Notes under the pieces: generated by a model
Told to the model about the DNA's origin: nothing
What the model saw: only the letters and a program-made list of their open reading frames with translations
Databases searched by the model: none
Assembly: GCF_001542625.1 (NCBI RefSeq)
Contig: NZ_CP016279.1
Span: 4,402,001-4,466,000, forward strand
Source of the DNA: Streptomyces griseochromogenes
GTDB taxonomy: Bacteria > Actinomycetota > Actinomycetes > Streptomycetales > Streptomycetaceae
Direction of reading: 5' to 3'
Length of the DNA: 64,000 bases
In this document: positions 5,197 through 40,939 of the stretch, one piece after another
Layout: every line of letters starts with the position of its first letter
Position numbering within the stretch: the stretch's first letter is position 1
Made by a program: the position numbers and the translations under genes

Positions 5197-5616
5197 GATG
5201 ACGATCTTGTGGGGGAACGGACGCGAACCGCACCCGGACGCGGCATCCGGCCCAATGGATTCCTCCGCCAGGCCAGTGCGGCCGGCCTCGCTCACCGCCC
5301 CGTCTGCCGGGTGCATCCGCTGCTCAGGCGTATCCGGCCCGTGCGCGGCGGGACCGCCCCGTCCAGCCGTCCCCTACATCGGCGGGCGGCTGTCCTACAG
5401 GACACGCTGTTCTCGCCGGCACGGACAGCCGGTCGGCGGGGCGGCGCCGTATGAGTACGCCGGTGCCGGCACTCCCGCAGGACGGCAGTCGTGATGATCA
5501 GCAACGCCTCCACGGGACGGAGCCGAGAACGCAGCGGCTCTCGGTCCACTCCCTCGGTCGTGCTCGAAGCCCGGGCCCGGATAGTGTGCGCCGTACCCAG
5601 CAGACGAGAGGCCACG
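5197..5616. other. Divergent intergenic region, nothing recognised
   Basis: About 420 bases between two divergent genes. It should contain both promoters. No coding frame with family resemblance or clear operator was seen. Confidence 0.4.
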
Positions 5617-7375: not shown

Positions 7376-8602
7376 ATGGGCACGGAGAGCATTGACCGAT
7401 CGGAAGGTTTCGGCGAGCGGCTGCTAGGCCTGTTGCTGGACAGAGCGCGGCTGCTGCCGCCCCAGATGATCGCCCCGCTGATCGCGGAGGGAGTGGCCAG
7501 GATCGGCGGTCGTGACGTCTCCGTGCTGCTCCAGGACTACGCGCAGGAGCTGCTGGTGCCACTGCCGGGCAAGAAGCTGCACGTGGCCCAGCCAGAGTCG
7601 GTGGCCGACTCCCCGGCCGGGCGGGCCTTCCTGCGCGGGGACGTTGTCGAGGTACCGCAGGCCCCGGGCGGTGTCCGGATGTACCTGCCGCTGCTGGACG
7701 GCAGCGACCAGGTGGGCGTATTGGCTCTCACCCTGGACGCAGTCGGCGACGACGACCGGCGCCTGCTGACCAGGCTCGCCAGCCTGGTCGCCGACATGCT
7801 GGTCACCAAGAACGCCTACACCGACCAGTTCTTCCAGGCCCGGCGTCGGGAGCCCATGAGCGTGTCCGCAGAGATCCAGTGGAGCCTGCTGCCGCCGCTG
7901 ACGATGTCCGTGCCCCAGGTCGAGGTGGCCGGCGCGCTGGAGCCCGCCTACCGTGTCGCCGGCGACAGCTTCGATTACGCCCTCAACGGCAACATCCTGC
8001 ACATGGCCGTCATTGACGCGATGGGCCACGGCTTGGACGCCGCCACGATGGCAACCGTGGCCATCGGCGCTTATCGGCATGCCCGGCGCGTGTTCATCAG
8101 CCTGGACGAAAAGTACGCGTTCATGGACGATGCCATTTCCCGGCAGTTCGGGCCCGACCACTTCGTCACGGCGCAGCTGATGCACCTGAACATCACCACC
8201 GGTGAGATGGAGCTGGTCAACGCGGGCCACCCCGCGCCGCTGCTGATCCGCGACGGCCGGGTCGTGGAGCAGCTGGAGAGCGCGACGACGCTGCCCGTCG
8301 GCTTCGGCGGCGAAATGCCCCGAGTCAGGGAACACGTGCTCCAGCGAGGCGACCGGGTGCTCAGCTACACCGACGGCATCATCGAGGAGCATGTCGTCGG
8401 CGGGGAGACGTTCGGCGAGGAACGCCTCATCCACTGCGTCAACCGCCTGGGGGAAGTGCCCTCAGAGGGAGTGCGGGCGGATCTGCGCCGACTCTCCCAC
8501 ACGCTGAGGAGGGAACGGGGCGGGCGCACCACCGACGACGCCACCCTTTTCATGGTCGAGTGGCACGGGGGCACCGCCGACCACCTCATGACCCTCGACT
8601 GA
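7376..8602 (+). CDS. SpoIIE-type PP2C protein phosphatase with N-terminal GAF-like sensor
   Basis: A 408-residue protein. The C-terminal half is a PPM/SpoIIE serine phosphatase domain: AGDSFD (metal-binding Asp197 and Asp200), VIDAMGHG (Asp214 to Gly219), NAGHPAP and LSYTDGIIE are the expected blocks. Residues 1-160 look like a GAF-type sensor module, with a helical linker (EPMSVSAEIQWSLLPP) typical of the RsbU/SpoIIE junction. In Streptomyces such enzymes usually dephosphorylate anti-anti-sigma factors; no kinase or antagonist gene is adjacent. An in-frame GTG at 7361 is an alternative start. The first acidic motif reads AGD rather than the more usual GGD. Confidence 0.88.
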   Translation: MGTESIDRSEGFGERLLGLLLDRARLLPPQMIAPLIAEGVARIGGRDVSVLLQDYAQELLVPLPGKKLHVAQPESVADSPAGRAFLRGDVVEVPQAPGGVRMYLPLLDGSDQVGVLALTLDAVGDDDRRLLTRLASLVADMLVTKNAYTDQFFQARRREPMSVSAEIQWSLLPPLTMSVPQVEVAGALEPAYRVAGDSFDYALNGNILHMAVIDAMGHGLDAATMATVAIGAYRHARRVFISLDEKYAFMDDAISRQFGPDHFVTAQLMHLNITTGEMELVNAGHPAPLLIRDGRVVEQLESATTLPVGFGGEMPRVREHVLQRGDRVLSYTDGIIEEHVVGGETFGEERLIHCVNRLGEVPSEGVRADLRRLSHTLRRERGGRTTDDATLFMVEWHGGTADHLMTLD

Positions 8603-8973
8603 CCTCTCGACATCGACCGAGTCCGCACCCGACACCGCCGCCCAACGCCGACGACGACCCGTCCCCAGCGGTGTCGCATCGCGACAGGGGGGGGGACCTG
8701 CAAGCGCGCCAGGGGCAAGGGTGCCGGGGACACCCCGGTCGTGCAACGGTCTCATCCGGGGGCGTCCGTCTGGCACTCTCTTCCGGCCCCAGACCGTATG
8801 CCGTGGCGAGACCCCGCACACCGTTCGGAAGGCCTGCCCTGCGGCGACGGCAGATGATCCGGTCCGAACAGCCGAAGCCGCTGACCTCGCATCACGGTGA
8901 CGGGAAGGCCGTGGGCACCCCGTCACCTTGCATATCCGGCACCAGCCGTAGGACGTCGTTGACTCCATGACGT
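8603..8973. other. Intergenic region, nothing recognised
   Basis: About 370 bases between convergent genes, including a run of nine G at about 8687. No supported gene was found. Confidence 0.4.
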
Positions 8974-9174
8974 TCACACGGTCGTGCAATGTCCGACCGG
9001 GCTGGCCTTGCGGGGGCGATTTCTCGAGAACCGCCATACGGCGTCGGAGTTGTTCTTCACACCCCTCGGGTTGTTGCAGTCATCGGATGCGCAGGCAGTC
9101 CGCGCTCGCGCGGAGACAACTGACAACGTGGACAGGGCGGTGGCCGCCACGAGCGTCGCGATTCGCTTCTTCAC
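8974..9174 (-). CDS. Small secreted Cys-containing protein
   Basis: A 66-residue protein starting at a GTG with a GAGGGG ribosome binding site about 10 bases upstream. The N-terminus VKKRIATLVAATALSTLSVV is a textbook signal peptide, probably cut near ARA (residue 24). The mature peptide of about 40 residues contains C28, C33 and C63 and is polar and basic (NNPRGVKNNSDAVWRFSRN). No family recognised. It could be a secreted peptide or an inhibitor-like small protein. It is convergent with the phosphatase gene and downstream of the AraC regulator, about 200 bases away. Confidence 0.6.
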   Translation of the reverse strand: MKKRIATLVAATALSTLSVVSARARTACASDDCNNPRGVKNNSDAVWRFSRNRPRKASPVGHCTTV

Positions 9175-9370
9175 CCGCGTGAAACCCCTCTGCTTTCCCG
9201 TGCGACCGTGAGCCGCGTTGGCATGCCACTGCCAATTGCGAGTTGTCGACGTTCCTGCGCGGACCCCCGTGCCGCGCAGTCCGATCGAGTCGGTGAACGT
9301 CCCCTTCAGGATGCAGCAACGCGGCCGGTGAGTCGTGAGCGCTGAGTGCACAACCGTGTTGGCAATGAGT

Positions 9371-10345
9371 TCACCCGTGCCCGTGGAACGCCTGCTGCCG
9401 GTGTTCCTGCGGGGTGGTGCCGTAGGCGGCGCGGTAGGCGCGGCTGAAGTCGGTCGCGCGGGGGAAGCCCCAGCGGGTGGCGATGGTGTGGATGCGGGCG
9501 GCGCGGAGCGCGGGGTCGGCGAGATCACGACGGGCCGCCTCCAAGCGCAGGCGGCGGATCCATGCGGCGACCGTGATCTCCTCGTCCCGGAAGAGACGGT
9601 GCAGGTAGCTGGTGGAGATGTGGTGCGCGGCCGCGATCGTGGCCGGGGCGAGGTGCGGGTCGTGCAGGTGCTCCCGGATGAACGCCTGGATGCGCAGCGT
9701 GAGGGTCCGCCGGTGGGTCTCCGAGGGGAGACTGTCGTCGGCATCGAGGACGTGGGCGAAGAGCGCGGCGACCAGATCGGTGAAGACGGTGCCCAGTCTG
9801 GGCCCGTCGGCAGGCTGATACGCGGTCGTGTCCGCGCTCAGCTGGGTGAGGAGCCGTGCCAGCAGGGCACCGATCCCTTCCTGTGTCGACACCGGTGCCC
9901 CGACTATCCGGCCCACCGCGCTGCGCGGCAACGGCAGCACGGCCTTGGGAATCTCCAACGCAAGGGTTGTGCCCAGGTCCTCGGTACTGTGCACGTCGTT
10001 CGTCAGCGAAGTCGAGTTGATGAGCAATCCGTGCGGCTTGTACTCGGTCTCCCGGTGCTTCCACACACCTCCTCCGGCCCCGCGTAGGACGAGTGAGAGG
10101 TGGTACGCCTCAGGGTCGGACTGCCGGATCAGCTTCGGTGTGCGGCGGAAGACCAGCGGCTGGAACGTGGCAGTCCACATGGTGACAGCACCGAGGCCCA
10201 GCACGCGCTGGGAGGCCCGGAAGTCGTCGGCGTAGTCGCTCCGCAGTTCCATGGGGGCATGGGTACGGCCCAGTAGCTCGGCCCAGTAGCCGAACCGGTC
10301 CGGCGCGGGTACATCGTCACTCCGGAACACCAACTCGTCCAGCAA
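9371..10345 (-). CDS. AraC family transcriptional regulator (AraC-binding-like domain 2)
   Basis: About 324 residues. The N-terminal two thirds match the cupin-like AraC_binding_domain_2 group (DRFGYWAELLGRTHAPMELRS), and the C-terminal 100 residues are a double helix-turn-helix: TIAAAHHISTSYLHRLFRDE for the first and TIATRWGFPRATDFSRAYRAAYGTTP for the second, the latter a good match to the AraC signature. The TTG at 10345 is preferred because a GAGGGGAAG site lies just upstream; an ATG at 10390 gives 15 extra residues. The target gene is not obvious, as no partner is divergent at close range. Confidence 0.85.
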   Translation of the reverse strand: MLDELVFRSDDVPAPDRFGYWAELLGRTHAPMELRSDYADDFRASQRVLGLGAVTMWTATFQPLVFRRTPKLIRQSDPEAYHLSLVLRGAGGGVWKHRETEYKPHGLLINSTSLTNDVHSTEDLGTTLALEIPKAVLPLPRSAVGRIVGAPVSTQEGIGALLARLLTQLSADTTAYQPADGPRLGTVFTDLVAALFAHVLDADDSLPSETHRRTLTLRIQAFIREHLHDPHLAPATIAAAHHISTSYLHRLFRDEEITVAAWIRRLRLEAARRDLADPALRAARIHTIATRWGFPRATDFSRAYRAAYGTTPQEHRQQAFHGHG

Positions 10346-10627
10346 CCGTCTTCCCCTCTTTCCCTGCAACCGCTGGTCAACGGCTCCCACTCAGGGATAC
10401 ACGGTGAAAGGGATGCCGCAGTTCCATTGCACCACGGTCGAACGACACGGGCAGGACAGCCCGGTTGCACGATCCGTCGGACATCGCCCGGCCCGTACCG
10501 TTCCCAGGGAAGACGTTACTGATGGTCACCCGGGTGGTCTCGAATGCAGATTGGAGAGCCGACCGTGCCGGGCCGGCCGTCCAGCACCGCGCGTATTGCT
10601 ACGGGCTGTCACGGCCGGCCCCTATCG

Positions 10628-10852
10628 CTACGCCCTGTACCGATAACGGATCCGGCCGCGGGTGAGGTCGTAGGGGCTGAGTTCCACGAGCACCCGGTCG
10701 TACGGAAGGATCTTGATGTAGTTCTTCCGGATCTTCCCGCTGATGTGGGCGAGCACTGTGTGCCCGCTCTTGAGCTCTACCTTGAAGGTGGCATTGCGCA
10801 GGCACTCGATGACAGTGCCTTCGACTTCTACGCCCCCTGATGTTTTTGACAT
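10628..10852 (-). CDS. infA: Translation initiation factor IF-1, accessory copy
   Basis: A 74-residue protein with the full OB-fold of bacterial IF-1: [20 protein letters not shown], then [39 protein letters not shown], ending in RYR. IF-1 binds the ribosomal A site of the 30S subunit during initiation. The gene is not in the ribosomal-protein operon where the essential infA usually lies (next to rpmJ/rpsM), so this is most likely a paralogue. It carries an extended N-terminus (MSKTSGG) and Tyr/Arg-rich tail compared with the housekeeping protein. It is monocistronic. Confidence 0.92.
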
Positions 10853-11052
10853 GGTCTCTCGGTTCTCCGGTTCTGTGACGGTGTAATTCGATGGGAAACG
10901 AATGCGGTGCGCGGTCGGGTGGGGCGCTCTCTGCCCTCCGCCGTACGCAGCCGACCCGTGGACGACGGCCGTCTGGCGCCCGCCCGTGGGAGCGGCCGTC
11001 ACCACGCCTGCCTCGGACTCGATTTGGTCGTTCGATGCGGTGTGACGGATCG

Positions 11053-11850
11053 TCAGCTGCGGATGAGCTCCAGGGTGCCGGCCGCGCGCCGGGCACCGAT
11101 GTTCTCGAACAGGGCGGTAGCCGCCGCGTTGGACTCGTTCACCTCAGCCCACGCCGAAACGGTCCCGGAGCGGTGCAGTGAACCCAGCGCGTGGGCCAGC
11201 AGCGCCCGGGCGATCCCGCGGCGGTGCCTGTCGGCCCGGACGGCGATCAGCCCGATCCGTGGCTGCCGGGTAAGCGGCGCCACCCGGATCAGCCCCACGT
11301 ACTGGTCCAAGTGCCGCGCCACCGCGTACTTCGCCGGGTCGACGACGGTGGTCCCCGCCGGGCGGGGCAGCACCTCGGCCGGCATCGTCTGCCATCCGAC
11401 GGCGGCCTCGACCTCGTCGCGGATGATGCGGTCCAGAGCCCGCAGCGGGGCCTCCTCGGCCTCACCGGAGGGCACGATGGTCACGCCGGACGGGGGCCGC
11501 ACCGGGTCGAGACCGGTGATCTGTGGGTCGGTGGGCACGAGATAGCCCCATTCGCGGCGTGCGACGGCGAAGCCGGCCCGCTCCCAGGCGGACCGCGCGT
11601 CATGGTCGGCCTCGTCGACGACCGTGGACAACGGCGTCGGCAGATCCGTCAGCATCGCGTCGGCGATGCGGTCGAAGACCGCGCCGTGCCATGCGTCGAT
11701 GCTGATGAAGAGCCGCCCGTCGGGTCGGCGTGAAGCGTCGCCTCGGCCGACCGTCCGGTCGTCCTCCACGGCGTGCCACTGCATGTTCGACACCCGCGTG
11801 ACCACGACCGCGTGATTGCCCGTGCCCGAAGCGGAATGCGCAAAGTTCAT
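11053..11850 (-). CDS. GNAT N-acetyltransferase under a probable leader-peptide control
   Basis: A 265-residue protein whose C-terminal half is a GNAT domain: [26 protein letters not shown] is the acetyl-CoA loop (R-H-R-R-G-I-A), followed by [18 protein letters not shown]. The N-terminal half ([18 protein letters not shown]) resembles a second, degenerate GNAT unit. Substrates are unknown; related enzymes include antibiotic acetyltransferases. Its ribosome binding site GAGAGG is enclosed in a hairpin, and a strongly initiated 17-codon reading frame lies upstream, an arrangement like inducible resistance genes. It lies downstream of IS debris on the same side. Confidence 0.85.
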
Positions 11851-30398: not shown

Positions 30399-31874
30399 TC
30401 ACCTCAGGGCTCGCGTGATGACCCGTTCCATCACTGTCTCGGGCAGTGCCGGGTTGTTCGCGGCGGCACGGGCGAGGGAGCTGTCGGCGGCGTCGATCAG
30501 GGTTTCCAGGACCGGGAGGGCCAGAGCGGGATGAGCGGCCGCGCGGCGCCGTGTGTCGGAATCCCGGGCGGCCAGGCAGAGCAACAGTGTCTCGGACCGT
30601 GCCGCCGGGTGGCGCGCGATCTCTCGCAGGGCGCGGCTGGTGCCGGCCGGGTTCGCCGCCATGCGGTGCAGCAGGGCGGCGGGACAGCCGGGGTGGCGGG
30701 CGACCGCGGCGAAGACGGGCGGCCCGTGCCGTTCGACCAGTTCGGTGAGCCGTTCCGGAGCCAGTTCCGGGCGGGCGGCGATCCGCTGGGCCACTGCGAT
30801 GTCAGGGTCGGTGGCGAGCTGTTCGGCGAGATGGCCGGGCAGCCGTGTCCGGTCGGCGGCGAGCGCTCTGGCCTGCGCCACCCGACTCGTGGCCAGCGTG
30901 CGGAGCTCAAGCTCGGTGGCGGACTCGACGCGGGGTGCCGGTTCGCCGGGCAGTCGTTCGCGAGCGGCGAGAGTGGTGAGCAGGCCGAGCGGGACGGCCG
31001 GGTTCTCCGCTGTGGCCCGGCGGACCTCAGGAGCGGGGTCGGCGGCGAGTGTGCGCAGCAGCGCTTCGGGGACGGCGGGATTCGCGGCGATCACAGCGCG
31101 GACGTCGCAGGAGGGGTGTGCGGCGAGACGGTTCAGGAAGTCGGCCGGCAGGTCGGTGCGGGCGGCGAACGTCGTGACCGTCCAGATCTCGGGGGCGTCC
31201 AGGAAATCAGCGAGCCCTTCGGGCGGCACGGCCGGATGGCCGGCGGCCGCCAGCCGGACGCGCCGGATGCCGGGTGTGTGGTCCGCGCACTCCGTCTCGC
31301 GGCGGTGGCATGCACCGCAGCGGGTCGGGGCCGGCCACCCGCCGTCGGCGAGGAGGGCGGCGAGCAGCGAGGGCGGCGCGTTCTCGTTGCCGGCGACGGC
31401 CTGCCGGACGACGGTGCTGGGGTGCCGGGCGAGGTGGGGGAGCAGCTCGGGCGGAAGGTGTGGGCTCCCGGCGGCGCCGGCGACCACCGCCGGGTCCGGG
31501 TCATGGGCGAGGGAGGCGATGACGTCGGCGGGTGCGTCGAGGGCGTAGGCGACCTCCTGCCGTACCTCGGGGTCTGCATCGGTGGCGGCCTTTCGCCAGG
31601 CGGCGACCGGTGCCACCCCACCGAGAACCGCGTCGAGTAGACGTCCGGGATGGTCCGGGGGAATCTCGGGCCACGGAACCAGCCCGCCCCGGACCAGCGG
31701 ACAGGTGAGCGACGGGTTGCCGACGGTGAGCAGGAGTCTGATCTGCGGGGGCGTCAGCCGCTCACGATCGGCCAGTGTGAACAGGACCTCCTCGTCGCCG
31801 CTCGCCACGAGCCGGGCGAACAGTCCGGCGGGCAGGGCCGGGTTCTCGGCCAGTCCCAGCAGCGCTTCACGCAA
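30399..31874 (-). CDS. Leucine-rich-repeat-variant (LRV/HEAT-like) protein with a Cys cluster
   Basis: About 491 residues, almost all made of short helical repeats of the LRV type: units such as LAENPALPAGLFARLV, VIAANPAVPEALLRTLA, ATAENPAVPLGLLTTLA and AAANNPALPETVMERV recur about every 24 residues. Near the middle is a CGACHRRETECADH segment that could bind zinc or an iron-sulfur cluster. LRV proteins form curved solenoids for binding other molecules. The TTG at 31874 is preferred because it follows GGGGGGTGGG and begins exactly at the first repeat; an upstream ATG would add a poor N-terminus. It is divergent from the lectin gene. Confidence 0.8.
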   Translation of the reverse strand: MREALLGLAENPALPAGLFARLVASGDEEVLFTLADRERLTPPQIRLLLTVGNPSLTCPLVRGGLVPWPEIPPDHPGRLLDAVLGGVAPVAAWRKAATDADPEVRQEVAYALDAPADVIASLAHDPDPAVVAGAAGSPHLPPELLPHLARHPSTVVRQAVAGNENAPPSLLAALLADGGWPAPTRCGACHRRETECADHTPGIRRVRLAAAGHPAVPPEGLADFLDAPEIWTVTTFAARTDLPADFLNRLAAHPSCDVRAVIAANPAVPEALLRTLAADPAPEVRRATAENPAVPLGLLTTLAARERLPGEPAPRVESATELELRTLATSRVAQARALAADRTRLPGHLAEQLATDPDIAVAQRIAARPELAPERLTELVERHGPPVFAAVARHPGCPAALLHRMAANPAGTSRALREIARHPAARSETLLLCLAARDSDTRRRAAAHPALALPVLETLIDAADSSLARAAANNPALPETVMERVITRALR

Positions 31875-32216
31875 ACGGTCCCACCCCCCACGACTGGCTC
31901 TGCCGGCCGCCTGGTGGCTGCCAACGGCAGGTTGATGTAACAGCAAGGGCCGCTCGACCGTCCATCGCATATCGCGGGGGACGGACCATGGTGGACGGCC
32001 AGGACGGGAAGGCGTCGGCATTCATCTGTAGCGGTCAGACCATATGGAACCGGCCATACCGGATAGTGCGTCGCACATCGGATTGAAGTGTTCATGTCCG
32101 ACCCATAGCGTGTGCGAGGCACGCCGGCCGGGTGACAACCGGTACCACGGCACACAGCCGCACACTCGTGCCCGCCCCTCGACCAAGAGCGGGCCGCCAC
32201 CAAGGGGAGGACCATC
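31875..32216. other. Divergent promoter region
   Basis: About 340 bases between the LRV gene and the lectin gene, with relatively AT-rich DNA around 32030-32100. It should hold both promoters. No gene seen. Confidence 0.4.
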
Positions 32217-32744
32217 ATGAACCTCCGCACAACTGCCCTCACCACCCGCATCGCGAGACCGGCGGCAGTCGTGTTCGCCACCGCGGCGATGCTGCTGGCC
32301 GGCACCACGGCCGCGCACGCCGTCACACCCACGCCCACACCCAAGGGTCCGGCCATCGCCAACGGGCAGACCTACTACTACGCGCTCAAGAACCAGAACA
32401 CAGGTCGCTGCGTGGACGACTCCTGGGACTACGGTCTGCGCGCGTTCACCTGTAACGGGCTCAACTACCAGAACTTCAACTGGTACAACCAGTCCGACGG
32501 CACCTGGGTCATCCAGAACCAGAACACCGGCCGCTGCATCGACGACAGCACTGCTTACGGCCTGCGTGCCTTCAGCTGCAACTACCAGTCGTTCCAGCGG
32601 TGGACGATCGTCTATCAGTCCGACGGCACGAAGACGTTGAAGAACCAGAACACCGGCCGCGTCATCGACGACAGCACCGACTTCGGCCTGCGTGCCTTCG
32701 GGTACAACGCACTGTCCTACCAGCGGTTCACGTTCGTCGGCTGA
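32217..32744 (+). CDS. Secreted ricin-type beta-trefoil lectin-like protein
   Basis: A 175-residue protein with a signal peptide (cleavage after AHA near residue 35) and a short Pro/Thr linker. Three tandem repeats of about 42 residues follow, each with KNQNTGRC(I/V)DDS and YGLRAFxCN, the RICIN domain QxW-type plan. Repeats one and two keep a Cys pair (C65/C79 and C107/C121), while in repeat three both are replaced (V149 and Y163). Such domains bind sugars outside the cell. The whole protein is a free-standing lectin without an enzyme domain. The ATG follows GGGGAGGA. A terminator hairpin follows. Confidence 0.85.
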   Translation: MNLRTTALTTRIARPAAVVFATAAMLLAGTTAAHAVTPTPTPKGPAIANGQTYYYALKNQNTGRCVDDSWDYGLRAFTCNGLNYQNFNWYNQSDGTWVIQNQNTGRCIDDSTAYGLRAFSCNYQSFQRWTIVYQSDGTKTLKNQNTGRVIDDSTDFGLRAFGYNALSYQRFTFVG

Positions 32745-32755
32745 CACATCAGCTT

Positions 32756-32797
32756 GCCAGTGCCGGTTGCGCCGTTGCCGACGTGTCCGGCACTGGC
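32756..32797 (+). terminator. Hairpin terminator after the lectin gene
   Basis: GCCAGTGCCGG (32756-32766) pairs perfectly with CCGGCACTGGC (32787-32797), an 11-bp GC-rich stem starting 12 bases after the stop codon. Confidence 0.65.
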
Positions 32798-32891
32798 GCT
32801 TCGGACAAGGCCTGCTCAGACCATGCGGATGGACGCCAGGACTACCGACAGGTCGTGGACGCCACGCCTTCGCTGAGAGCGGCCCGGTCGA

Positions 32892-32914
32892 TTGTCAGTG
32901 GCCGTCCCTAGAGT
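32892..32914 (+). promoter_or_regulatory. RecA-NDp/PafBC-type DNA-damage promoter
   Basis: TTGTCAGTG (32892-32900), an 8-base spacer and TAGAGT (32909-32914) match fully the mycobacterial consensus tTGTCRgtg-N8-TAnnnT that PafBC activates after DNA damage. The predicted transcription start falls at or one base before the ATG of the next gene, so its mRNA would be leaderless. Confidence 0.65.
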
Positions 32915-32921
32915 GCTTGGC

Positions 32922-33833
32922 ATGGGAACAACGCCGTTGGAACAAGTACTGCGCGAGGATCCGGACGACCTCGCCGCCTGGCGTGCCTACATCGACGTGC
33001 TGCAGGAGTGGAACGACCCCCGGGGCAGATTGGTCGAGCTGGAACTGCACCTCGCGCGCGAGGTGCGGCATGACGAACGCGAGGCACTGCAGCGCGAGAT
33101 CGACCAGCTGACGCAGCGGCATCAGGAGAGCTGGGACGCCGAACTGCCGGAAGGCGTGAAGGCCGTTGCGCGCCGGTACGGCTTTGCCACCAAGGTGGCC
33201 GTCGACTGGTCACAGCAGGCGCCCGCACGCATAGCCGAGGCCCTGCGGAGCCGTTTCGTGACCGCGCTGCGCATCCGGCCGGGCACCGCTGCGGAGGAGG
33301 CGGACGCCGAGTATTGGAGCGACGAGCCCGACTACGACGAGAACGACATGCCGCTCCCGCCGCCACCCCATGAAGCCGGTGCTCTCGCGGACGTTGACTT
33401 CGGAGGGATCCGCGAGCTGGACCTCTCGTACTTCCGTATCGCCGATCCCGGTGCCAAGAGCCTTGCCGCCGCGGCCTCGGCCGGGCGGATCGAGACGCTC
33501 GACCTGCGCTACTGCGCCATCGGCAGCGACGGCGCGGCAGCCCTGGCCACCTCCGGGAACTTCAGCGACGTCCGGCGTCTGCACCTCCAGTACAACCGGC
33601 TCACCGGCGACGGTGTGCGGGCGCTGGCCCGCTTCGGGCGGCTTGAGGAGCTCGACCTGCGATACAACCGGATCGGCGCGGACGGCGCACAGGCTCTGAT
33701 CGAGGCGCCGTTCACCGGTTCCCTCAAGCGCCTCCTGCTCTACCGCCACGACGTCTCCGACGCCGGTGCGAAGAAGCTGGCGTCCGCCCCTCAGCTCCCG
33801 ACCACCCTGCGCAGCATTTGGAGGAGCGTATGA
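32922..33833 (+). CDS. TIGR02996-domain leucine-rich-repeat protein
   Basis: A 303-residue protein. Residues 1-45 match the TIGR02996 repeat-companion domain (LREDPDDLAAWRAYIDVLQEWNDPRGRLVELE). An acidic, Pro-rich linker (about 130-150) leads to at least four LRR units such as IRELDLSYFRIAD, IETLDLRYCAIGSDGAAAL, VRRLHLQYNRLTGDGVRAL and LEELDLRYNRIGADGAQAL, of the ribonuclease-inhibitor type. LRRs bind protein partners. No ribosome binding site is visible before the ATG, which fits the leaderless promoter directly upstream. Its stop overlaps the next start (ATGA), so it probably works with the oxygenase. Confidence 0.85.
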   Translation: MGTTPLEQVLREDPDDLAAWRAYIDVLQEWNDPRGRLVELELHLAREVRHDEREALQREIDQLTQRHQESWDAELPEGVKAVARRYGFATKVAVDWSQQAPARIAEALRSRFVTALRIRPGTAAEEADAEYWSDEPDYDENDMPLPPPPHEAGALADVDFGGIRELDLSYFRIADPGAKSLAAAASAGRIETLDLRYCAIGSDGAAALATSGNFSDVRRLHLQYNRLTGDGVRALARFGRLEELDLRYNRIGADGAQALIEAPFTGSLKRLLLYRHDVSDAGAKKLASAPQLPTTLRSIWRSV

Positions 33834-35821
33834 GCATCGACCTTCGTGACCGCTTCTTCGCCCTGTCGACCGGCTCGGCCCCCGAGGACGAGGTCGCCCG
33901 CTTCCGCGCCGAGGTCGACGAGACCGACACCGAGGCAGCGGCCGCGATCGACGGGCTGGCGGTGTCCTGGCACCCGACGGCCCGTTTCAAGGCGGTGCGA
34001 TTCGTCGACGCGGAGCACATCGACGAGGCAGCGCGCGCGCTGTTCGCCCGGCCCAGCGAGGACGCGCCGCACCTGGCTGCCGTGTTCGTGGACCCACGCG
34101 AGTTGTCGTTTCGTACCTTCGAGAACATCGTGCCTCTGGACCGGCTCTTCGCGAACGTCTCCTTGGACCTCACGCTCGCCGAGCCCGTGGAACTCGCACA
34201 GGACGCCTACGCGGCACAGCTGCGCCTGCCCGACGTCGCCCGCGCCCGCATCGAGGGACTGGACGAGCTGAACCTCTACGTCCCGCCGCTCAACTCCGGC
34301 TCCCGCGGTGGCGAACGCTTCATCTTCCACTCGGCGTTGCTGGCCGATGCGCTCACCAAGGCGCTGTCCGAGGCACTGCCCGAAGCGCTGCTCGACGGCT
34401 TCTCACACGTCAACCCGGTGTTCCGCTGCAACCGCTTCGAGCCCGGAGATGCCAACTTCCACCAGCACCGGGACACCCCTTACTACGACGCCGCCCGCGG
34501 ACACGTCTCCCGGTTCACGGTGCTGCTCTACGTCACCGGCGGCTCGGGCGACTCCACACTCGACCTGACCGGGGGTACCACGGTCACCGACATCGAGGCC
34601 TTCACCTGCGTCATCTTCGACCAGCGGTACGAGCATGAGGGTGCGCCATACCGTGACGGCCGCAAGGTCTTCCTGCGCACGGAACTGATCTTCCACCAGG
34701 CCGAGTGCGAGGTCGCACACGACCCGGGGATCGGCGCGCTGTTCAGCAAGGCCTGCTACCTGACGGGCGAAAGTGTCTTCGCCCCGGAACTCGCCCGTCA
34801 CGCCGACACCTACTACAACCAGGTCGCCGCCGCGCACTGGAAAGGCCTGCCCGCCGGTGATCTCACGAGCGAGCCGTTCGTCCACAAGCGGTTCCGTGGC
34901 GTGGACTTCGTCGCGAACGGCTACGACTTCTGGTTCGCCAAGAACCAGGGGCTCTCGCTCACCGAGTGCGCCGCGATCACCCTGCTCGACTACTTCAACT
35001 GCAAACTCGGCGAGAGAGCATTCCGCGACGCATGCGAGTCGTCGGTCATCGAGGCCCAGGGAATGGACTGGATCCCCGGCTTCCTCGCCCGTCAGCGAGG
35101 CGAGGGCAGCAAGCGCGCAGCGGAGGAGGCCGTCGCGGCCTTCGACAAAACCCTGCTCTTCCCCGAGTCGGAAGAGACGAACAACGCCTGCTGCCCGTTC
35201 CACGACTGGGGCGAGTTCGACGCCACGCGCTTCGACGAGATCATCGAACTCCACGAGGCGGCGCAGACCTTCGTCAAGGCGCACATCATGCCGGCGCCCA
35301 TCCTCATGCTCGGCCAGGACGTGGTCCTCGACCCGGAGAAGTTCATGGTCCGCGGCAACCAGATCCACGTTCTCGGCAAGCGGTCACTCACCCCGGTGAA
35401 CTTCGCGGCCTGCTGGAACTCCGGTGGCGCGCCCCCGAATTACATCGACGTGGCCGCCACGGTCGATGCGGCTCACTTTCTTGTCCCACCGATCGTCTTC
35501 TCCGAGACGGACGACTGCTACCACCTGCAGTTCGATTTCTTCCGCAACACCTGGATGGTGAAGCACCAGCAGCTGCCAGTGCCCGTCCCCAGGATCCGCG
35601 ACATCGACGAACTGGACTTCGACCCCGACGACTGGGACACACGCGTCGAAGCGGCCGTGGCCTACCCCTGGATGAGCGCGGTCGCCCCTTCCCTGACCGA
35701 GGAGCCGTGCGGGAGGGCCAAGGCCGCCCACTGGTGGGCCGAGGAAGGCGCCCTGGACGACGAACTCCGCGGCCACCTCGCGGACATCGCAGAGGAGTAC
35801 GAAGAATACGACGAGGAATGA
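33830..35821 (+). CDS. 2-oxoglutarate/Fe(II) oxygenase domain protein, large
   Basis: A 663-residue protein. The prolyl-4-hydroxylase-type core lies at about 140-300: the metal triad is H213-x-D215 (HQHRDTPYY) and H269 (QRYEHEG), and R283 (KVFLRTELIF) is placed to bind 2-oxoglutarate. The remaining C-terminal roughly 360 residues contain conserved-looking Trp/Cys-rich stretches (NNACCPFHDWGEFDATRF and NFAACWNSGGAPPNYID) that I do not recognise. Such enzymes hydroxylate proteins or small molecules. Translation is coupled to the LRR gene, with a GGAGGAG site inside it. It is much longer than a typical P4H, so it is a multi-domain variant. Confidence 0.82.
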   Translation: MSIDLRDRFFALSTGSAPEDEVARFRAEVDETDTEAAAAIDGLAVSWHPTARFKAVRFVDAEHIDEAARALFARPSEDAPHLAAVFVDPRELSFRTFENIVPLDRLFANVSLDLTLAEPVELAQDAYAAQLRLPDVARARIEGLDELNLYVPPLNSGSRGGERFIFHSALLADALTKALSEALPEALLDGFSHVNPVFRCNRFEPGDANFHQHRDTPYYDAARGHVSRFTVLLYVTGGSGDSTLDLTGGTTVTDIEAFTCVIFDQRYEHEGAPYRDGRKVFLRTELIFHQAECEVAHDPGIGALFSKACYLTGESVFAPELARHADTYYNQVAAAHWKGLPAGDLTSEPFVHKRFRGVDFVANGYDFWFAKNQGLSLTECAAITLLDYFNCKLGERAFRDACESSVIEAQGMDWIPGFLARQRGEGSKRAAEEAVAAFDKTLLFPESEETNNACCPFHDWGEFDATRFDEIIELHEAAQTFVKAHIMPAPILMLGQDVVLDPEKFMVRGNQIHVLGKRSLTPVNFAACWNSGGAPPNYIDVAATVDAAHFLVPPIVFSETDDCYHLQFDFFRNTWMVKHQQLPVPVPRIRDIDELDFDPDDWDTRVEAAVAYPWMSAVAPSLTEEPCGRAKAAHWWAEEGALDDELRGHLADIAEEYEEYDEE

Positions 35822-35980
35822 GAGTTCCACGAGGCGGAGGGCGATCCCTGAGTACCACCGCAGCCGCGACACCACATGGAGAGCGCCCGCTTCTCGGTAT
35901 CACGCGGCGTATCGACCAGCCAAGGGATGCCCTCCTCGCTCCGCACGAGCGTCGGACTTGTGGACCAGGGCGGTAGTTGC

Positions 35981-37066
35981 TCAGCGCAGTACGGCCGCCA
36001 GCAGGTCGGCGCCCAGTGCCGTCAGGTCGGTCAGATGGAGGGTGTAACGGACGTAACGACCGTGCCGCCGGGCCGTGAGCAGGCCCGCGCGGCGCAGGAC
36101 AGCGAGGTGGCGGGAAACCTCCGGGGGTGACAGTTCCCAGGCGTGCGCCAGCTCACGGGTGGTGTGCGGGCCCCGGGCGAGGGTGCGCAGCAGCCGTAGC
36201 CGTACCGGATGTGCCAGTGCCTCCAGCCGTAGCGTGACCGTTTCCAGCGAGACCGGTTCCGATGGACTCGTCTCGGCCACGGGGTACTGCACCACCGGCT
36301 GCCACCCGGGCGTGTGGACCGCCACCAGGTGCGGGCGGCCGAAGACACTGGGGACGAAAGTGACCCCGGTGCCGTGGGCGGTGGTCGCCTTGTCCTGCAG
36401 CTTGTCCACGATGATGCAGTCGCCGTCCGGTGCCAGGGTGACCGCGCCGGAAACCGATGCGAGTGCCGGCCCGATGCCCTGGCGCTTCAACAGGTCGTTC
36501 TTCAGGCGCAGGTCGGTGGCCAGTCGCACGGTGACATCCGTCCAGGCGGCGTCGAAGAAGGCCTCGGCGCACTGTTCGAGGGTGTGGCGCAGCCGCGCCC
36601 GCACAGCGGCCGGGTCCGCGAGCAGCCGTTCCGCGAAGGCCTCTTGCCGCGCGCCGCGGGCCTGGGCCAGGTCCAGGGCCCGCTCGCGCGCGGTGGAGTC
36701 GGCGAGCGGCGACCGCGCGGCGAAATGGACCCGGCTGCTGCCGCACGTGGTGACGAGCGCGGCGGTCACGTACCTTTCGTCGTCGATCCGGTCCACGTCG
36801 TCCAACTCCTCGGCGAGGGTCGGCCGAGGCCGGGCGGGGATCAGGAAGTCGGCTTGTGAGGAACGCCAGAGGAACTCCGCCTCCCGCAACCGCTCGGCCA
36901 GCTCCGGCCGCAGTCCGGCCCAGACGTCCCCGGCCCAGTCGGCGAGCTGAGGATGATGCCCGGGTTCGGCCAGCACGTGCAGCATCGCGGTCAGTTCGGC
37001 CAGTGGCGAGGCCGCGAACCGCAGCCGTTCGGAGGGCGGGCCGCTGATGTCGATGCGTAGCGTCAT
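35981..37066 (-). CDS. DUF5937/ArsR-type winged-helix regulator
   Basis: A 361-residue protein in which a large N-terminal DUF5937 domain precedes a C-terminal ArsR winged helix (LRLEALAHPVRLRLLRTLARGPHTTRELAHAWELSPPEVSRHLAVLRRAGLLTARRHGRYVRY). No metal-binding Cys pair is present in the winged helix, so it is not a classical metal sensor. This architecture is common in Streptomyces, usually next to an MFS pump. It is divergent from such a pump here with a 21-bp palindrome between, so it most likely represses both until its ligand arrives. Confidence 0.85.
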   Translation of the reverse strand: MTLRIDISGPPSERLRFAASPLAELTAMLHVLAEPGHHPQLADWAGDVWAGLRPELAERLREAEFLWRSSQADFLIPARPRPTLAEELDDVDRIDDERYVTAALVTTCGSSRVHFAARSPLADSTARERALDLAQARGARQEAFAERLLADPAAVRARLRHTLEQCAEAFFDAAWTDVTVRLATDLRLKNDLLKRQGIGPALASVSGAVTLAPDGDCIIVDKLQDKATTAHGTGVTFVPSVFGRPHLVAVHTPGWQPVVQYPVAETSPSEPVSLETVTLRLEALAHPVRLRLLRTLARGPHTTRELAHAWELSPPEVSRHLAVLRRAGLLTARRHGRYVRYTLHLTDLTALGADLLAAVLR

Positions 37067-39874: not shown

Positions 39875-39969
39875 GCACTAGTACGGAGACCGGCGGAAGG
39901 CGCTCGCGTGCAGGTATCGCCCGGCGTCGGCGGCTAGGATGTCAGCTGTCCAGGTGCACTAGTGCGGAG
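39875..39969. promoter_or_regulatory. Two ACTAGT-centred repeats, probable operators
   Basis: GCACTAGTACGGAG (39875-39888) and GCACTAGTGCGGAG (39956-39969) differ by one base and are 81 bp apart, in the divergent promoter region. The core CACTAGTG of the second copy is a perfect palindrome. The second copy lies at the ribosome binding site of the regulator gene, and the first lies nearer the monooxygenase, suiting joint repression. Confidence 0.6.
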
Positions 39970-39976
39970 GGTGTCG

Positions 39977-40939
39977 GTGAGCGGACAGGCGGTACCTCGC
40001 TACAGGCAGATCGTCGACGAGCTGCGGCGGCAGATCGAGACGGGCGAACTGGCGCCGGGCGATCGCGTGCCCTCGACCCGCGAGATCACCAAGCAGTGGG
40101 GCGTCGCGATGGCGACCGCGACCAAGGTGCTCACCGAATTGCGCCGCGAGGGCATGGTCCACGCCATGCCCGGTGTCGGGACGGTCGTGGAGGCCCCGAG
40201 CCGCCGGGTACGCAACGCCCGCCCCACGGCCGCCCCACGCCCGGAGGGGCCGCCCGATGCGTCATCGGGCCAGGCGGCGCTCACGCTCGAACGGATCGTC
40301 GTCGCCGCCGTCACGGTCGCCGACACGGAAGGTCTGGCCGCTGTCTCGATGCGCCGGGTGGCCGCCGAGCTAGGGGTGGCAACCATGTCGCTGTACCGGC
40401 ATGTGGCCGACAAGGACGACCTGTTGATGCGGATGATGGACACGGTCATCGCGGAGCACCCGCTGCCCGCAGACCCGCCGGCGGGCTGGCGGGAGGCGAT
40501 CGAGCTGGCGGCCCGGCAGCTCTGGGACCTCTTCCGCCGCCACCCGTGGCTCGCACCGGCCCTGTCGGTGACCCGCCCTCAGATGATCACCTCGGCACTG
40601 CCGTACAGCGAGTGGATGCTCGGCACCCTGCACGCGCACGGACTCGACCTGCACTCCGCTTTCACGGCGCACCTCATGCTGCTCAACTACGCCCGTGGAA
40701 TCGCCGTCAATCTGGAGGCAGAGCGGGAAGCCGAGGCGCACAGCGGTCTCGACAGCGAGGAGTGGATGGACACGCAGGAGCCCGCGCTCCTGGCGATTCT
40801 GGCCACCGGCCGGTTCCCCGCGCTCTCCCGCCTCGCCACGACCGGTTACGACTTCGACCTCGACGCCGTCTTCGAGTTCGGCCTCCAACGCCTCCTCGAC
40901 GGCCTCGCCCCACTCGTCAACGAGAGCTCCGCCGGTTGA
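39977..40939 (+). CDS. GntR-TetR hybrid regulator
   Basis: A 320-residue protein with two DNA-binding heads. Residues 5-72 are a GntR winged helix (YRQIVDELRRQIETGELAPGDRVPSTREITKQWGVAMATATKVLTELRREGMVHAMPGVGTVV). After a Pro-rich linker, from about 95 a complete TetR domain follows (LERIVVAAVTVADTEGLAAVSMRRVAAELGVATMSLYRHVADKDDL) with its TetR_C-type ligand domain. The GTG at 39977 follows GGAGGG; GTGs at 39962 and 39971 are in frame. Such hybrids are known in Streptomyces, often next to an FAD monooxygenase. It probably binds the ACTAGT repeats. Confidence 0.87.
   Translation: MSGQAVPRYRQIVDELRRQIETGELAPGDRVPSTREITKQWGVAMATATKVLTELRREGMVHAMPGVGTVVEAPSRRVRNARPTAAPRPEGPPDASSGQAALTLERIVVAAVTVADTEGLAAVSMRRVAAELGVATMSLYRHVADKDDLLMRMMDTVIAEHPLPADPPAGWREAIELAARQLWDLFRRHPWLAPALSVTRPQMITSALPYSEWMLGTLHAHGLDLHSAFTAHLMLLNYARGIAVNLEAEREAEAHSGLDSEEWMDTQEPALLAILATGRFPALSRLATTGYDFDLDAVFEFGLQRLLDGLAPLVNESSAG

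Follow-up and report, generated by a model that had tools for sequence, protein, structure and literature searches.

A leucine-rich-repeat protein and a prolyl-hydroxylase-like oxygenase behind a RecA-NDp promoter in Streptomyces griseochromogenes: a probable DNA-damage-response operon

The window analyzed here is a 64-kb stretch of the Streptomyces griseochromogenes genome (contig NZ_CP016279.1, positions 4,402,001 to 4,466,000). It contains an operon of two genes, encoding a leucine-rich-repeat (LRR) protein and an oxygenase of the 2-oxoglutarate (2OG)/Fe(II) type, located behind a promoter of the RecA-NDp/PafBC type. Judged from its promoter, the operon is very likely induced by DNA damage and probably constitutes a damage-response module. 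Our proposal as a whole, an operon of the PafBC damage regulon encoding an LRR partner and a hydroxylase that modifies a cellular protein, appears reasonably probable. A sequence-only reading had suggested a damage-induced protein-modification module. Its first half is supported by a promoter conserved in 26 of 42 loci (null 0.96%), by the repair regulon to which this promoter belongs, and by a LexA-type box in one clade; its second half by a hydroxylase-like enzyme adjacent or fused to the LRR protein. The operon comprises the following features, given in window coordinates.

32892..32900 (+): RecA-NDp/PafBC-type upstream element TTGTCAGTG; exact consensus match, found at the same place in many relatives
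32909..32914 (+): -10-type hexamer TAGAGT (TAnnnT), read in the sequence and in relatives
32921..32922 (+): predicted transcription start, either the A of the ATG or the preceding base, placed by the -10 spacing
32922..33833 (+): gene of the LRR protein, 303 amino acids, predicted to be leaderless; N-terminal TIGR02996-like region, then leucine-rich repeats (Pfam LRR_6)
33820..33826 (+): Shine-Dalgarno sequence GGAGGAG of the second gene, read directly
33830..35821 (+): gene of the 2OG/Fe(II) oxygenase, 663 amino acids; predicted prolyl-hydroxylase-like catalytic domain and C-terminal region
34466..34474 (+): codons of the HxD iron motif (H213, D215), invariant in 75/75 aligned sequences
34634..34678 (+): codons of H269 (presumed third iron ligand) to K279 and R283 (candidate 2OG-binding residues), invariant in 75/75

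The element TTGTCAGTG, followed by eight bases and TAGAGT (32892-32914), shows no mismatch to the consensus TTGTCRGTG-N8-TAnnnT, which reportedly goes back to Gamulin et al. 2004. No other strict match occurs in the window; shuffled sequences gave a mean of 0.01, and a scan of 32700-36100 for ordinary sigma-70 promoters found none. Seven bases separate the -10-like hexamer from the ATG at 32922 and, as the sequence-only reading had stated, no Shine-Dalgarno sequence lies between them. The oxygenase start at 33830 overlaps the LRR gene by four bases (ATGA). With this layout, it is highly probable that the LRR transcript is leaderless, its 5' end lying at or next to the start codon.

The host genome sequence, a single contig of 10.76 Mb, contained 34 strict RecA-NDp matches and none of the reversed pattern. 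First genes at 24 of the 33 other sites were scanned against family libraries. Curated cut-offs were exceeded by RadA, RecA, Ung, RuvC, UvrB, DnaX, DpdE, and an AlkZ-like DNA glycosylase. Best matches that stayed below the cut-off were PcrA, a second UvrD-type helicase, a DinG/YoaA-type helicase, a RarA-like AAA protein, a Hel308-like helicase, and UvrA, in most cases because the locus ended inside the gene. The remaining first genes encoded a SWIM protein, an SMC/RecF-like ATPase, a SUKH-4 protein, a phytoene-desaturase-like protein, and several DUFs, and some had no match. The DpdE gene (L015:1566-3023, +) lies behind a RecA-NDp box; DpdE is part of a DNA 7-deazaguanine system, so that a DNA-modification or defence system may be damage-controlled as well. 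The SUKH-4 immunity-type protein is encoded at L028:243-1400 (-), downstream of another box. Furthermore, the host carries a pafB-type gene (WYL, WCX) and a pafC gene (HTH_PafC, WYL, WCX) near a Pup-ligase gene.

Strict sites were present in all 61 sampled Streptomyces genomes (11-44 each), with a total of 1509 as compared to six reversed matches. Together with the host counts, this identifies the box as a real, genus-wide regulon signal in Streptomyces; the consensus, which the sequence-only reading had described as established in Mycobacterium, was matched, but it is not only mycobacterial. The same holds for the leaderless layout, which is present at 32922 but not peculiar to this operon, since about half of the host regulon is alike: at 19 of the 34 host sites, a start codon (ATG or GTG) with an open frame of 100 codons or more follows 5-10 bases past the box, with 1-10 sites in each remaining 6-base bin out to 118. 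In the 61 genomes, an ATG stands 5-10 bases past the box at 610 of the 1509 sites and 15-20 bases past it at 83. The layout is therefore typical of the regulon.

For recA of Streptomyces rimosus, a promoter of a new type was reported in 2002, according to the title of the reference. In the passages of papers mentioning both, the leaderless layout was not tied to PafBC. Parts of a Streptomyces venezuelae LexA study (2022) state that an initial search suggested that the Mycobacterium smegmatis PafBC motif is not conserved there, and they leave open whether a RecA/LexA-independent response exists in Streptomyces. Our site counts are in tension with this remark and argue that such a response exists, at least in the 61 genomes searched. 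Named target genes, those of this operon included, now allow a direct test of the question.

Promoters were examined at 42 of 46 loci, the window's included; the set excluded L073, L077, L078, and also L038, which is the same gene as L037. Conditions were set such that the box lies within two mismatches of the consensus in a stretch of 100 bases (80 upstream and 20 downstream of the start). A RecA-NDp box was found in 26 of the 42 operon promoters as compared to 0.96% of random 100-base stretches from the same loci, and in 22 of 38 after removal of near-identical promoters. A wider stretch again yielded 26 loci, with a null of 1.65%. The start codon lies 6-8 bases past the box in 25 of the 26. 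In 22 of the 26 loci, the start was set from the alignment to residue 1, either as it stood or after counting back, and 21 of these starts fall at 6-8 bases, L068 being the exception; the starts of L037, L042, L047, and L058 were placed by eye beside the box and are not independent. In a tree built from 43 oxygenases, loci with the RecA-NDp box are scattered across the actinobacterial part. A copy of the Streptomyces type, with a RecA-NDp box, occurs in Nonomuraea montanisoli; thus, the promoter appears to travel with the gene.

Eight loci from Streptosporangiaceae (L053, L055, L056, L059, L062, L064, L066, and L070) have a promoter of another kind, although L062 also has a RecA-NDp box. These promoters consist of TTGACA (GTGACA in L056), 16 bases, TACATT (TACATG in L056), 7 bases, and the ATG; a box such as CGTACATTCGTTCG overlaps the -10 and ends one base before the LRR start codon. 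The pattern CGWACN4GTWCG was exact in six of the eight and had one mismatch in two, and it was exact before the best lexA match and before recA in all eight of the same genomes. Genome-wide, it occurred 46-108 times per strand in six of these genomes as compared to 22-30 for the reversed control; it therefore also occurs outside LexA sites. RecA-NDp sites are kept in the same eight genomes (100 versus 6 reversed in all). The eight loci form one clade (99/97) on the oxygenase tree. In the window's own promoter, the best match to the LexA pattern has three mismatches. Apparently, the pair moved to LexA control in these Nonomuraea-type relatives, one damage regulator having been exchanged for the other; this apparent change of regulator is the strongest sign that damage control matters for the pair.

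The LRR protein of the window matched Pfam LRR_6 with 72.1 bits (cut-off 23.4). Its earlier label, TIGR02996/LRR protein, stands for the repeats but is weak for TIGR02996, with 17.7 bits against a curated cut-off of 29.05; TIGR02996 was found at E<=0.01 in 10 of 14 scanned family members. The score for the STM4015 family (NF038076) was 42.1 bits, below the curated cut-off of 275. All 14 aligned LRR proteins, rows chosen because their match began at residue 1, have an ATG at the aligned first position.

The oxygenase was found to carry the HxD…H iron triad and the basic 2OG-binding residue of the 2OG/Fe(II) superfamily: H213, D215, H269, K279, and R283 do not vary in any of the 75 sequences aligned (75/75). 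Prolyl 4-hydroxylases serve as the model for taking H269 as a presumed iron ligand and K279/R283 as candidate 2OG-binding residues. A scan with the Pfam library assigned no family to the window protein; PF26703.1 was listed by the protein search and was absent from that library scan. The gathering cut-off of 2OG-FeII_Oxy_3 (PF13640), 27, was not reached, a fusion relative scoring 18.7 bits. Structure prediction used P0001, a protein identical to that of the window except at residues 298 and 660; a first model (A1, built from 25 close sequences) was poor, with a predicted local distance difference test (pLDDT) score of 63.6, and was replaced. The predicted catalytic domain adopts a double-stranded beta-helix fold, and its best 50 structural matches are mostly prolyl and lysyl hydroxylases and PHD2; a small number are oxygenases of other or uncharacterised kinds. 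The assignment as a 2OG/Fe(II) oxygenase is thus carried by the catalytic residues and the fold but not by a Pfam match. By its model, the enzyme resembles protein hydroxylases of the prolyl-hydroxylase-like fold class, and the chance that it carries out protein hydroxylation seems slightly better than even. A bacterial prolyl hydroxylase acts on EF-Tu, going by an entry title, and OGFOD1 is described in excerpts as acting on a ribosomal protein; these precedents make a translation factor a reasonable target, although its choice is a guess by analogy.

At least 409 proteins matched the oxygenase at E<=0.001 among the 8000 best candidates scored. The gene pair occurs sporadically, in 7 of 246 Streptomyces including that of the window, and the oxygenase was found on four plasmid records, two of which are megabase Embleya replicons. 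No relative was found in phage records or viral contigs, and a phage origin was therefore rejected. The gene neighbourhood was sampled at 38 loci, three of them from metagenome bins. In 37, tblastn placed an LRR gene upstream on the same strand, with the LRR protein matched only in part in L042, L058, L073, L075, and L078; the remaining locus, from a planctomycete, has a different LRR gene, adjacent and convergent. Natural fusions of LRR protein and oxygenase exist in P0025 and in P0059, where the LRR part is degraded as judged by eye.

No wider conserved neighbourhood was found in the 38 loci, and beyond the pair only group-level neighbours recur. In nine loci, the eight LexA-type ones and L074, the operon is preceded by a divergent minus-strand gene; the one scanned, in L062 (3795-4889, -), encodes DUF6745. 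Two convergent minus-strand genes lie downstream in 11 and 10 loci, mostly from Actinomadura, and those scanned, in L054, encode AAA_5/MoxR-like and DUF2201 proteins (7971-9911, - and 9911-11524, -). Neither the LRR protein nor the oxygenase matched a PADLOC model, so that a known defence family was rejected, and PHROGs gave no match. In the window itself, 30399-32021 (-) encodes a leucine-rich-repeat-variant (LRV) protein of 540 amino acids, and no cluster with this protein reached four loci. The product of the gene at 39962-40939 (+), read by eye, appears to join a GntR-type N-terminal half to a TetR-type C-terminal half.

As described in parts of two papers (PMC11804915, PMC10936776), PafBC is activated by single-stranded DNA and then adapts the housekeeping polymerase for use of promoters that have a -26 element. 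Upon DNA damage, PafBC activated in this way would allow the housekeeping RNA polymerase to use the RecA-NDp promoter of the operon. Transcription would begin at the LRR start codon or right beside it, so that the LRR gene would be translated leaderless, and the oxygenase would be translated by coupling from its own Shine-Dalgarno sequence. Both proteins may then act as one unit: the LRR protein would select or hold a cellular protein as substrate, and the prolyl-hydroxylase-like enzyme would modify it during damage. Nonomuraea-type relatives would have brought the same pair under LexA control. That the LRR protein is a partner rather than a substrate has about an even chance. A wider version, in which the damage response works through protein hydroxylation, the LRR adaptor presents a cellular protein (e.g., a translation or replication factor), and the pair was recruited at least twice, by PafBC and by LexA, is put forward only tentatively.

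Several observations weigh against this proposal. In the near-identical loci L037 and L047, a frameshift interrupts the LRR gene soon after its start (near L047:5107), although the RecA-NDp box and the oxygenase frame are kept, and the role of the LRR protein has linkage as its sole ground. The rarity of the pair in Streptomyces (7/246) implies that it has no core repair function. Among the promoters, 16 of 42 lack a RecA-NDp box within two mismatches, seven being LexA-type and nine neither (L048, L054, L057, L065, L071, L072, L074, L075, and L076); L048 and L076 are one mismatch from the LexA pattern, as are 2.4% of random stretches, and L075, by eye, has a likely start near 5339 with TAGTTT seven bases before and no recognisable box. 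The LexA-type loci form a single clade and so represent one evolutionary event, and six further LexA-family genes in their genomes have no box in the fetched stretch. Structural matches of the oxygenase lie within about one Z unit of each other, and among them are oxygenases that are uncharacterised or do not modify proteins; no solved structure was matched by sequence, and about half of the enzyme (about residues 300-663) has no assigned fold.

Four other explanations were considered. The LRR protein could be the sole substrate, with hydroxylation by the oxygenase switching its binding. The close neighbourhood and the two natural fusions suit a dedicated substrate as well as an adaptor, but at most three prolines (P14, P76, and P263) are invariant in the 14 aligned LRR proteins and a substrate fused in cis would be unusual; we regard this as unlikely. 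A place in the repair regulon would also be explained if the oxygenase acted on nucleic acid in AlkB-like direct repair, and AlkB enzymes are indeed 2OG oxygenases. This is very unlikely, since the best 50 structural matches are mostly prolyl and lysyl hydroxylases and PHD2, and the LRR partner points to a protein target; AlkB enzymes are not among these 50, which does not imply their exclusion.

Alternatively, the operon could be an anti-phage or conflict module for which DNA damage, standing in for infection, is the arming signal. The sporadic distribution, the four plasmid records with two megabase Embleya replicons, a promoter that apparently travelled with the gene to a foreign host (L043), and other defence-like genes in the regulon (DpdE and SUKH-4) agree with this, but neither protein matched a PADLOC model and no copy was found in phage records or viral contigs, and we consider it quite improbable. 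That the promoter likeness is due to chance and the operon is not damage-controlled is extremely improbable; given the enrichment and conservation of the box, a chance match is rejected.

A damage-controlled LRR protein/hydroxylase pair was not found described among the literature matches listed on the two families, on PafBC in Streptomyces, and on hydroxylases in connection with LexA, SOS, or DNA damage. Likewise, among these matches, with subscription papers mostly outside, neither a bacterial prolyl-hydroxylase-like enzyme nor this LRR family was linked to DNA damage. Promoter, enzyme class, and repeat protein are each known, and it is their combination that was not found described. The macrodomain gene SCO6735, located behind a RecA-NDp promoter in Streptomyces, is ultraviolet (UV)-inducible, and its mutant showed no significant damage-sensitive phenotype, as stated in parts of PMC5087735; regulon membership is therefore no guarantee of a repair phenotype.

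The LRR protein shares an LRR region and an N-terminal motif with STM4015-family and TIGR02996 proteins and falls under both curated cut-offs. The oxygenase shows about 9-17% identity over one domain with OGFOD1/Tpa1, PHD2, and bacterial prolyl 4-hydroxylases; unlike these, it has extra N-terminal and large C-terminal parts and an LRR partner. Read on the other strand, CGTACATTCGTTCG fits the S. venezuelae LexA motif tCGAAC-N4-GNNCGa, as excerpted from PMC9380542, and so do the boxes at the best lexA match and at recA in the same relatives; such an actinobacterial SOS box is absent from the window's own operon promoter. That promoter shares consensus and spacing with the known PafBC/RecA-NDp promoters of Mycobacterium and of Streptomyces recA and SCO6735, and here too the box stands upstream of recA and repair genes. 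In contrast to those promoters, it is followed by genes for an LRR protein and a hydroxylase-like oxygenase, with the start codon of the operon seven bases past the promoter.
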